Translations under genes and position numbers: made by a program
DNA from: an uncultured Pirellulaceae bacterium
GTDB taxonomy: Bacteria; Planctomycetota; Planctomycetia; Pirellulales; Pirellulaceae
Assembly (NCBI GenBank): GCA_937921995.1
Contig: CAKZVF010000111.1
Location: forward strand, 1 to 45,621
Length of the DNA stretch: 45,621 nucleotides
Direction of reading: 5' to 3'
In this document: piece after piece, positions 2,725-4,328 of the stretch
How the letters are laid out: every line of letters starts with the position of its first letter
Position numbering within the stretch: the stretch's first letter is position 1
The notes under the pieces: model-generated
Seen by the model: only the letters and a program-made list of their open reading frames with translations
Database searches by the model: none
What the model was told of the DNA's origin: nothing

Positions 2725-2839
2725 GGTTTGCAATTACAAATCGCTGTATTTAAATGTTGCAAGCTGAAGTTATGACCGTAAAATCATTCACAGGCATTTT
2801 CATTTTCTTCTTCTCAGGAGCGGTTGGACCGGCGACACA
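2725..2839. promoter_or_regulatory. Divergent intergenic region upstream of the graspetide precursor
   Basis: This 115-base AT-rich gap must carry the promoters for both the leftward 5-oxoprolinase gene and the rightward precursor gene. A CAGGAG sequence at 2815-2820 resembles a ribosome binding site but lies 19 bases before the ATG at 2840, which is farther than usual. No convincing -35/-10 pair was identified. Confidence 0.35.
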
Positions 2840-3430
2840 ATGAATGAACTTCAGCAACAACAAGTTCGCAATCTGGTTCAACAATTTCGCGATGGTAGCG
2901 TTGGGCGACGCGACTTTCTTCGACAAGTCGTTGCGCTGGGAATCGGTTCGGCCGTTTCCTATTCTTTGCTTGGGCAAGCCGAATCGGATGCCCAAATGTT
3001 CGGCGCTCCGACAACCATGGCCGTCGGCGAAGAGGATCCCGCCCCTCAAGCCACAACTTTAATGGTAGGCGAAGAAGACGTCCACCAACCACCGCACGCG
3101 ACGACTTATGCAATCGGCGAAGAGGATCCCCATCATGGCCCTCAACCCACCACCGAAATGGTGGGCGAAGAAGACATCCCTCAACCTCCTCAGGTAACCA
3201 CCCAAGCACTAGGAGAGGAAGGCAACGGTCATCCTACCACGGCAATGGCGGGGGAAGAGGGCACTCACATCCAACCGCCTCAGCCATCCACTCGAAGGCG
3301 GGGCGAAGAAGGAAACGTCGCGCCTCCACAAATGTCGACGATGGCGATTGGTGAGGAAGATAATGTTCCACCAGTTTGTCCACAGCAACGCCCACCACTG
3401 AGGCCATGGAACGGTTGGAATCGTTGGTAA
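2840..3430 (+). CDS. Putative graspetide (plesiocin-type) precursor with Tat-like leader and eight TTxxxxEE core repeats
   Basis: A 196-residue ribosomal peptide precursor. Residues 1-50 form a leader with a twin-arginine motif (GRRDFLRQ, residues 22-29) followed by a hydrophobic stretch to about residue 45, like a Tat export signal. The rest is eight spaced repeats at residues 58-65, 72-79, 88-95, 104-111, 120-127, 133-140, 150-157 and 166-173. Six read TTxxxxEE and the last two STxxxxEE, usually with Gly before EE and often Asp after it. TTxxxxEE is the core motif of plesiocin-type graspetides, in which an ATP-grasp enzyme links Thr side chains to Glu or Asp side chains by esters; such peptides can inhibit proteases. 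Linkers are rich in Pro, Gln and His, and the tail is Trp-rich with a single Cys (residue 180). The next gene is an ATP-grasp ligase that overlaps this one, which strongly supports the reading. The leader does not resemble a microviridin leader. Product, rings and target are inferred. Confidence 0.85.
   Translation: MNELQQQQVRNLVQQFRDGSVGRRDFLRQVVALGIGSAVSYSLLGQAESDAQMFGAPTTMAVGEEDPAPQATTLMVGEEDVHQPPHATTYAIGEEDPHHGPQPTTEMVGEEDIPQPPQVTTQALGEEGNGHPTTAMAGEEGTHIQPPQPSTRRRGEEGNVAPPQMSTMAIGEEDNVPPVCPQQRPPLRPWNGWNRW
3011..3358 (+). repeat. Eight-unit TTxxxxEE coding repeat array
   Basis: Imperfect coding repeats with unit starts 39-51 bases apart (13-17 codons). The motif residues are tightly kept while the linkers vary in length and sequence, which points to selection on the protein motif rather than to a recent DNA duplication. 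Confidence 0.85.
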
Positions 3431-4302
3431 AGTCAAGCAACTCTGTCCCTCTGTTGATCGTCGGTGGTGACTCTGACCCCAACACTCGGCGCGTTGTGGA
3501 TCAGGCTCATATTAGACAGATTGACTATCACTTCTGGGACACCGATGTCGAAGGCAGTTTGCAGATCGCCTGGGATTTCGATAAACCGGTAATCGATCTG
3601 GGCGACCAGCATTTACAACCCGCGGCCATCTTCGCGCGTTGCAACGTGTTTTCGCAAGACACCAACCTGCCCGCGCGCGTCCACCAACTAATTCAGGGCT
3701 ATGCGTTGGCGTGGCCGGACGTTCGAATTTTGAATCGCCAAACGCTGAACACGCTCAATAACAAGTCGCGAAACTTGCGATTGGCCAGAGACATTGGGTT
3801 CGCGATTCCCGACACGATGGTGTTGGGCGATTGTTCGCCACTTGAGACGGTTCCCGACGCGGAGAATCGAATCGCTAAACCACTTGATGGAGGCGCTCAT
3901 ACCGTTTCGGTGTCCAAGCTGAATCAACAACGGACTCAGTCCCAATGGCCCAACACTTCCTATTTTATCCAAGAACGGCTTAAAGGCGAAAACCTGCGCG
4001 TGTTTGTTATTAATCAACAGGCCTATTGTTTCCATTTGGCAACGCAATCGCTGGACTATCGCGATGATCCCAAGGTTGCTGTGAGGCAGATATCCACGCC
4101 CTCTAGATTGGTGGCCCCTGCGCTAGCGTTGGCCAAAAAGATCGGCTTCGATTTCTGTGCGTTAGATTTTCGCTGTCGCGCGAATTTCGAAAACCCAGTT
4201 TTCTTGGAAGTCAATTCCTTCCCAATGTTTGTGCGTTTTGATGATGCGGGAGAAAACTGTTTGGTCGATCGCGTGTTAGATTTTCTTGTGCCCACAACAT
4301 AA
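3406..4302 (+). CDS. ATP-grasp ligase, putative graspetide macrocyclase
   Basis: A 298-residue ATP-grasp enzyme of the MvdC/MvdD/PsnB kind, expected to phosphorylate Glu/Asp side chains of the precursor and form esters with Thr/Ser. The N-terminal part (PLLIVGGDSD) is a pre-ATP-grasp fold. The ATP-binding Lys is probably K158 in AKPLDGG, followed by FIQERLKGENLRVFVI (residues 187-202) and the metal-binding set D254 (ALDF), E268 and N270 in FLEVNSFP. The ATG at 3406 is preferred. An in-frame TTG at 3376 would add ten residues that read in a second frame through the precursor tail. Either start overlaps the precursor, whose stop is at 3430, so translation is probably coupled. No transporter, protease or second ligase is adjacent. 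RimK-like or glutathione-synthetase-like activity is the alternative, but the repeat-bearing neighbour argues for a graspetide enzyme. Confidence 0.85.
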   Translation: MERLESLVKSSNSVPLLIVGGDSDPNTRRVVDQAHIRQIDYHFWDTDVEGSLQIAWDFDKPVIDLGDQHLQPAAIFARCNVFSQDTNLPARVHQLIQGYALAWPDVRILNRQTLNTLNNKSRNLRLARDIGFAIPDTMVLGDCSPLETVPDAENRIAKPLDGGAHTVSVSKLNQQRTQSQWPNTSYFIQERLKGENLRVFVINQQAYCFHLATQSLDYRDDPKVAVRQISTPSRLVAPALALAKKIGFDFCALDFRCRANFENPVFLEVNSFPMFVRFDDAGENCLVDRVLDFLVPTT

Positions 4303-4321
4303 AGCCCGTTCCTACTGGGCT
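4303..4321. terminator. Possible hairpin between convergent genes
   Basis: AGCCC (4303-4307) and GGGCT (4317-4321) can pair around a 9-base loop, directly after the TAA of the ATP-grasp gene and before the convergent aldo/keto reductase stop. The stem is short and has no U-run, so a terminator role is weakly supported. Confidence 0.3.
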
Positions 4322-4328
4322 CGTCCGT

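Follow-up and report, generated by a model that had tools for sequence, protein, structure and literature searches.

In this study, we analysed a stretch of 45,621 nucleotides from an uncultured Pirellulaceae bacterium (the window; contig CAKZVF010000111.1 of assembly GCA_937921995.1), which is one entire contig of a 4.8 Mb, 77% complete genome of 329 contigs, and in it a pair of overlapping genes on the forward strand. The pair probably encodes a plesiocin-type graspetide whose precursor carries a twin-arginine translocation (Tat) signal as its leader, and which would be knotted by its ligase, exported by Tat and act as a multi-headed serine-protease inhibitor. The first gene (positions 2840–3430, from an ATG at 2840 to the end of the stop codon at 3430) encodes a multi-core precursor of 196 amino acids, and the second (3376–4302) an ATP-grasp graspetide ligase that starts at TTG 3376 or, more likely, at ATG 3406, its frame overlapping the end of the precursor gene by 55 or 25 nucleotides, respectively. 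The original prediction for this DNA, which had described eight repeats and an overlapping ATP-grasp ligase gene at 2840–4302, was correct in its coordinates and in its reading of the two genes.

The precursor consists of a leader of ~51 residues, eight [TS]TxxxGEE units with short proline-rich linkers, and a cysteine-containing tail that ends in WNGWNRW. The units are TTMAVGEE (3011–3034), TTLMVGEE (3053–3076), TTYAIGEE (3101–3124), TTEMVGEE (3149–3172), TTQALGEE (3197–3220), TTAMAGEE (3236–3259), STRRRGEE (3287–3310) and STMAIGEE (3335–3358). Repeats by chance were rejected as an explanation, as each of 10,000 shuffled versions of the precursor contained at most a single [TS]TxxxGEE (mean 0.0015). 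TTxxxxEE is the motif of plesiocin, a group 2 graspetide, and the window precursor has this plesiocin-type motif in eight units; the two systems share tandem units of this kind and a single PsnB-like ligase. Two lactones per repeat of the plesiocin precursor PsnA2 were found by tandem mass spectrometry (PMC9484694), and plesiocin inhibits serine proteases with a potency that increases with unit number (PMC13097080). Unlike the window precursor with its eight units and its ortholog with 12, plesiocin is tetravalent, with four units (PMC12291112), and it differs also in that the window precursor has a Tat-like leader.

The ligase points in the same direction. NCBIfam graspetide models ranked first for it, none at its own cut-off, and its best solved relative was 7DRM, the structure of PsnB (E 3e-10), the eight others among the listed matches lying above E 0.05. 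Alignment of the window ligase to PsnB showed that KPxxGG, the R of [LV]RV[FY], and the D and ExN of the ATP-grasp site are kept. A profile of 12 Pirellulaceae-type ligases matched 7DRM (E 4e-18), 7M4S, 7MGV, 5IG8 and 5IG9, and no other solved chain at E ≤ 0.1. According to PMC10452190, these are PsnB, aMdnB, CdnC, MdnB and MdnC, so the five solved relatives recovered by profile matching are all graspetide ligases, with PsnB of plesiocin the best of them. An AlphaFold2 model of the ligase, built from a two-row alignment, had a predicted local distance difference test score of 30 and was unusable. With both the ligase kinship and the adjacent repeat of Thr/Ser and Glu/Asp by which graspetides are recognised, the Pirellulaceae pair can be classed, on its sequence, as a probable graspetide system.

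Related systems were collected from planctomycete genomes using a profile of ten repeat stretches (E ≤ 1e-6), which had matches in 11 of 392 genomes of a phylum sample, 15 of 396 of an order sample and 19 of 397 of a class sample, these samples overlapping. Including the ortholog of the window pair, the survey yielded 39 repeat-bearing frames in 35 planctomycete genomes, and because these precursors were gathered by their repeats, the type of leader was not chosen in advance. The leaders were named type A (Pirellulaceae-type, RR[DSG][FL]LR), type B (a second lineage, M[RQKI]HPF) and type C (a third type), with two others. For 32 of the 39 frames, the stretch that was fetched also encodes a related ligase (13/13 of type A, 13/16 of type B, 5/8 of type C and 1/2 of the others). 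Three of the seven frames lacking one (L054, L124 and L142) are near contig ends and three more (L139, L140 and L143) are from genomes with a ligase elsewhere, while for L133 neither a contig end nor a ligase elsewhere accounts for the absence; L042/L054 and L046/L142 are same-genome pairs at contig ends that may be pieces of single genes. A FastTree phylogeny of 58 ligases placed the 13 of type A in one clade and the 13 of type B in another, each with a support of 1.0, and hence the ligase tree, which was built without the leaders, splits A from B as the leader-named types do. The third ligase group had a support of 0.29, and the deep branches were not resolved.

The feature that distinguishes the window precursor is its leader, in which GRRDFLRQ (residues 22–29) is followed by VVALGIGSAVSYSLL and then by SDA|Q. 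The twin-arginine motif RRDFLR occupies residues 23–28 (2906–2923), the mildly hydrophobic h-region, VVALGIGSAVSYSLLG, residues 30–45 (2927–2974), and the signal-peptidase-like site SDA residues 49–51 (2984–2992), with a predicted cut before Q52 that was placed by eye in the alignment. All 12 complete type A leaders, which are from four genera of one family, have RR[DSG][FL]LR followed by a conserved, mildly hydrophobic stretch and then, by eye, a small-x-Ala site preceding Q or D. All 15 type B leaders have M[RQKI]HPF and, by eye, twin arginines with a hydrophobic stretch. Twin arginines before a hydrophobic stretch were consequently present in 27 of 35 usable precursor N-termini, 12 of the Pirellulaceae type and 15 of the second lineage. 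The N-terminus was usable in 35 of the 39 frames, as three are cut by the end of a contig or stretch and in L037 the leader and repeats are in different frames. The latter locus (L037:7700-8343), in a one-contig genome, has an MQHPF..RR leader and six repeats and may represent a frameshift or a sequence error.

Two Tat patterns of our own devising were applied to these N-termini, whose start codons were chosen by the analyst and, for the second lineage, placed at the HPF motif. The strict pattern was found in 6 of 12 type A, 12 of 15 type B, none of six type C and neither of two other leaders, compared with 136 hits among 27,000 shuffled leaders and 12 among 320 other open reading frames (ORFs). 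The relaxed pattern, which was drawn up after its strict counterpart had missed some leaders, so that its count is partly fitted, was found in 12/12 type A, 14/15 type B, 1/6 type C and 0/2 other leaders, compared with 913 hits among the 27,000 shuffles and 27 among the 320 other ORFs. The window leader passes both. The rate in the 320 control ORFs is raised by their including a true precursor (L124, a relaxed hit), ORFs opposite precursors and some apparent real Tat proteins. Chance twin arginines were ruled out by these shuffled-leader and other-ORF counts.

The mechanism that we propose begins in the cytoplasm, where the PsnB-like ligase would bind the precursor and use ATP to join two Thr (or a Ser and a Thr) to two Glu of each TTxxxGEE unit via side-chain esters, resulting in up to eight bicyclic hairpins joined by the proline-rich linkers. 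Tat accepts folded cargo, and the cross-linked chain, presumably a poor substrate for the general secretory (Sec) pathway, would be exported by it, after which signal peptidase would cut following SDA; a transporter or protease of its own would then not be needed. Once outside, the chain would inhibit serine proteases with several heads, each with a specificity set by the first loop residue of its unit. Its production and use in related Pirellulaceae probably go together with those of small Sec-secreted partner proteins encoded immediately upstream. Esters, Tat passage, cleavage and inhibition are predicted here from what could be read directly, namely the genes, repeats, leader pattern, homology and neighbourhoods. 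The Sec route is unlikely by analogy with lanthipeptides, as bulky cyclic ones have been argued not to fit the Sec channel and Tat was suggested for them, with first attempts unsuccessful (PMC5686179).

Support for the inhibitor role comes from the loop of the units. Since the strict unit pattern fixes the other positions (both Glu fixed, T or S at positions 1 and 2, and G, R or S at position 6), only three loop positions are informative, and over 279 strict units their entropies were 3.11, 0.74 (mostly Ala) and 2.38 bits (mostly V, L or I). The first of these, which is M, L, Y, E, Q, A, R and M in units 1 to 8 of the window, is thus the most variable, the pattern that would be expected if that residue touches the target protease. 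Between the window and its ortholog in G013, the ligase and the leader look to be constrained to the same degree, with ratios of nonsynonymous to synonymous substitution of 0.11 and 0.12, respectively, and 0.28 for a C-terminal block.

Several results weigh against the proposal that these are Tat-exported graspetides. Eight of the 35 usable N-termini have the same units without the Tat layout (one of them passing the relaxed pattern): six are type C leaders, which begin with a short [LF]F[IV]ExLExR segment and, that relaxed hit aside, show no Tat layout, and the two others have neither that start nor the layout. TIGR01409, the curated Tat model, scored 13.3 (the window leader), 13.8 and 15.7 bits in three leaders, under its cut-off of 16.7, and nothing in a fourth, although that cut-off is a property of the model and does not define Tat cargo. 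The original prediction of a Tat-type leader consequently holds for the recurrence of the layout in 27 of 35 precursors that were gathered by their repeats, and falls short on the curated model. A bare [ASV]xA cleavage test gave no gain for type A (12/12 versus 72% in shuffles) and hardly helped for type B (13/15 versus 66%). The h-regions of type B leaders that pass the strict pattern have hydropathies of 1.39–2.27, overlapping those of Sec-like signals encoded beside type A precursors (1.85–2.78, see below), and low hydropathy is therefore a trait of type A only (a maximum of 1.54 over 13 residues among its six leaders that pass the strict pattern). The ligase scored 40 bits with TIGR04187 (GRASP_SAV_5884), whose cut-off is 350, and is 22–26% identical to the ligases of the second lineage. 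When the entire precursor was compared with Pfam and NCBIfam, no model came up at E ≤ 1. Finally, 26 of 28 members of the genus had no ligase match, several of these genomes being incomplete, and the source genome encodes one C39-type peptidase, away from the pair, that could act in trans.

The core chemistry, a graspetide of the plesiocin type, is known, whereas its delivery by Tat is apparently new: no published case of a Tat leader on a ribosomally synthesized and post-translationally modified peptide (RiPP) was found within the reach of our literature search, in which TTxxxxEE also had no match, and planctomycete members may be listed in tables of graspetide mining with no remark on their leaders. 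Bufferins and other RiPPs modified by multinuclear non-heme iron-dependent oxidases (MNIO) likewise have precursors with an export signal, but it is a Sec and not a Tat signal, and their enzyme and chemistry are unrelated. In work on lanthipeptide phage display the authors suggested Tat for the exit of modified lanthipeptides; this was an engineering idea and not a natural case, and preliminary attempts at it failed (PMC5686179). A natural example of Tat exporting finished cyclic peptides would supply what was raised there and not achieved, and could be of use in display. It would also bear on leader removal and export in graspetides, which are settled for only some members: the enzyme cleaving graspetide leaders has been called unknown (PMC8939145), some graspetides are served by transporters that contain a peptidase (PMC10885120), and for class I microviridins a 2026 report describes a leader protease (PMC13039773). 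To these a Tat leader would add a third answer, clear and testable. Multi-headed chains whose loop residue changes from unit to unit would moreover be ready-made panels of possible protease specificities. More tentatively, and with somewhat less confidence than doubt, we suggest that there is a planctomycete class of RiPPs with Tat as its natural exporter, knotted before export, having a leader cut by signal peptidase and, in Pirellulaceae, delivered with dedicated secreted partners as part of an extracellular assembly. Were this so, it would be the first natural RiPP exported by Tat, with one leader serving both export and enzyme recognition.

Those partners are evident in 9 of the 13 type A loci, which have one to three genes for small secreted proteins upstream of the pair on the same strand. 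They are n1, a secreted Gly/Asn-rich protein (8/13 loci), a PDZ-like secreted protein (6/13) and n3, likewise secreted and rich in SxGGTA-type repeats (7/13), and all three occur in four loci. Four five-gene operons of partners, Tat-type precursor and ligase were seen (L119:4677-8489, L120:4847-9024, L121:4524-8920 and L127:2510-6707). PDZ_6 of Pfam was over its cut-off in two of four scanned PDZ-like partners, just under it in one and absent from one; weak matches to PDZ models at the edges of L130 and L132 were left out of the partner count, and three n1 and two n3 members had no Pfam match at E ≤ 0.01. The loci with no partner are L116 (which starts at a contig end), L117, the window and the window's ortholog, and a relative of n1 was not found in the window's own or sister genome by a search that had no positive control. 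A hydrophobic stretch is present at the N-terminus of all 21 partner proteins (peak hydropathy 1.85–2.78 over 12 residues), with no twin arginines in the likely signal; as the script placing partner starts favoured hydrophobic stretches, the count of these is in part a product of the method, which the absence of twin arginines is not. Four starts were re-placed upstream of the edge of the hydrophobic stretch, still with no twin arginines; n1 of L120 does have an RR, but two residues upstream of its probable ATG and not within the signal. In a single operon, Sec-like signals are thus found on proteins that should cross unfolded, and twin arginines only on the one that is expected to be cross-linked. 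These proteins provide a first handle on the use that planctomycetes make of such peptides.

The partners also raise the possibility that the chain is cross-linked and exported by Tat, but is structural or adhesive, a protease-resistant string that co-assembles with them in a matrix or fibre and in which the loop residue is of minor importance. The secreted Gly/Asn/Ser-rich proteins in nine type A loci, and the PDZ-like protein in six, suit such an assembly, as do the range of unit numbers in the 12 complete precursors of type A (6 to 12), the presence in all of them of the aromatic/basic tail W[KN]x[FW][RGNK]RW, and an extra domain in 8 of 15 second-lineage precursors by inspection. We nonetheless regard this explanation as unlikely, though not lightly set aside, since the window and its ortholog have no partners (with the caveat above on the n1 search), among the open positions the first loop residue varies most, as one would expect for an inhibitor, and three of the eight domain-bearing precursors have weak Inhibitor_I9 matches, below the cut-off (E 0.035–0.11), that point to protease inhibition. 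The tail of the window precursor, WNGWNRW, is at 3407–3427, and ligase docking and a sorting signal are candidate roles for this tail in type A.

A different possibility concerns the leader, which might be a recognition helix for the ligase only, its twin arginines and hydrophobic stretch serving that enzyme and any export proceeding via a C39-type peptidase transporter elsewhere. Graspetide leaders do have conserved hydrophobic helices, such as PFFARFL (PMC8939145), and some graspetides are processed by peptidase-containing transporters (PMC10885120). Type A leaders have no HPF motif, and the ligase must then dock on another part of the precursor, perhaps the signal peptide or the WxxFRRW-like tail; the C39 peptidase gene of the genome leaves room for a conventional leader protease acting in trans. 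However, the second lineage keeps twin arginines with a hydrophobic stretch in all 15 leaders by eye despite its separate HPF motif, and it is the Tat layout that is the shared feature, twin arginines being missing from the signals of the 21 operon partners; this explanation is in our view decidedly improbable. Tat export as we propose it also agrees with the genome encoding TatC (171 bits; of the Tat machinery, TatC alone was searched). Group 2 graspetides show high co-occurrence with NHLM-type transporters (PMC13097080), which are frequent companions and do not define the group, whereas no transporter gene was seen beside the window pair, where the contig starts inside the neighbouring hydantoinase gene and the left side of the locus is visible only that far. 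The absence of a dedicated transporter or protease in the original prediction is qualified by this limit and by the C39 peptidase gene elsewhere.

That the ligase is instead a RimK-like amino-acid ligase, adding residues to a repeat protein rather than making macrocycles, was rejected as highly improbable on RimK-model scores and solved-chain profile matches: although the ATP-grasp fold is common to RimK, the sibling ligase L117 matches the RimK model TIGR00768 weakly (27 bits versus a cut-off of 143.4), repeat-linked ligases of other lineages score 47–74 bits with it (lower than their own graspetide scores) and RimK controls are not clearly apart from the deep unsupported branches of the ligase tree, the window ligase had no match to that model at E ≤ 1e-5, two RimK relatives from the same bacterial family scored 178 and 181 bits, above the cut-off, all five solved relatives found at E ≤ 0.1 belong to the graspetide ligases, and the units have the TTxxxxEE motif of plesiocin. 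A RimK-like ligase whose homologues have no repeat-bearing partner had been named beforehand as the outcome that would speak against a graspetide; the ligase does not behave as RimK-like, and its homologues do have such partners, in all 13 Pirellulaceae-type loci.

To the left of the pair is a hydantoinase/oxoprolinase gene, within which the contig begins, and to its right an aldo-keto reductase gene on the other strand, followed by a gene of the BrkB family and then a gene with no Pfam match (the assignments being from Pfam). A search of the genomes of 60 relatives with the ligase gave two matches, the source genome and G013, whose locus (L002/L036; precursor at L002:518-1285) is the sole ortholog found in the genus and has a near-identical leader and C-terminus and the same neighbours; a wider contig scan also found the same-genus ortholog only. 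In the genus member G009 the same two neighbours are 24 bases apart between matched ends (L148:1476-1501), with no cassette, compared with window positions 2734–4328, which indicates that the pair was gained or lost as a unit of ~1.6 kb. Plasmid records searched with the ligase gave three matches of 25–27% identity, and viral contigs searched with the ligase profile gave none, so that, at this sensitivity, neither a plasmid nor a phage carrier is indicated.

The second planctomycete lineage resembles the window system in its units, in its related ligase (13/16 loci) and in the twin arginines and hydrophobic stretch of its leaders, whereas it differs in having a separate HPF docking-like motif, a ligase gene that is often on the opposite strand and, in 8 of 15 precursors, the extra domain. 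In L124, L128, L129 and L139 this is a long domain between the Tat-like leader and the repeats, and the Inhibitor_I9 matches, which are in three of these four, hint at a fused protein inhibitor. In the precursors of L133, L136, L138 and L039, another domain follows or interrupts the repeats, which had no Pfam match at E ≤ 0.5 in three cases and one match of chance level in L039. The third precursor type (L040, L041, L044, L054, L142 and L143), with the [LF]F[IV]ExLExR start, carries as many as 20 repeats; of three leaders of this type that were scanned, one weakly matched PF07595, the planctomycete extracellular motif of Pfam (E 0.15).

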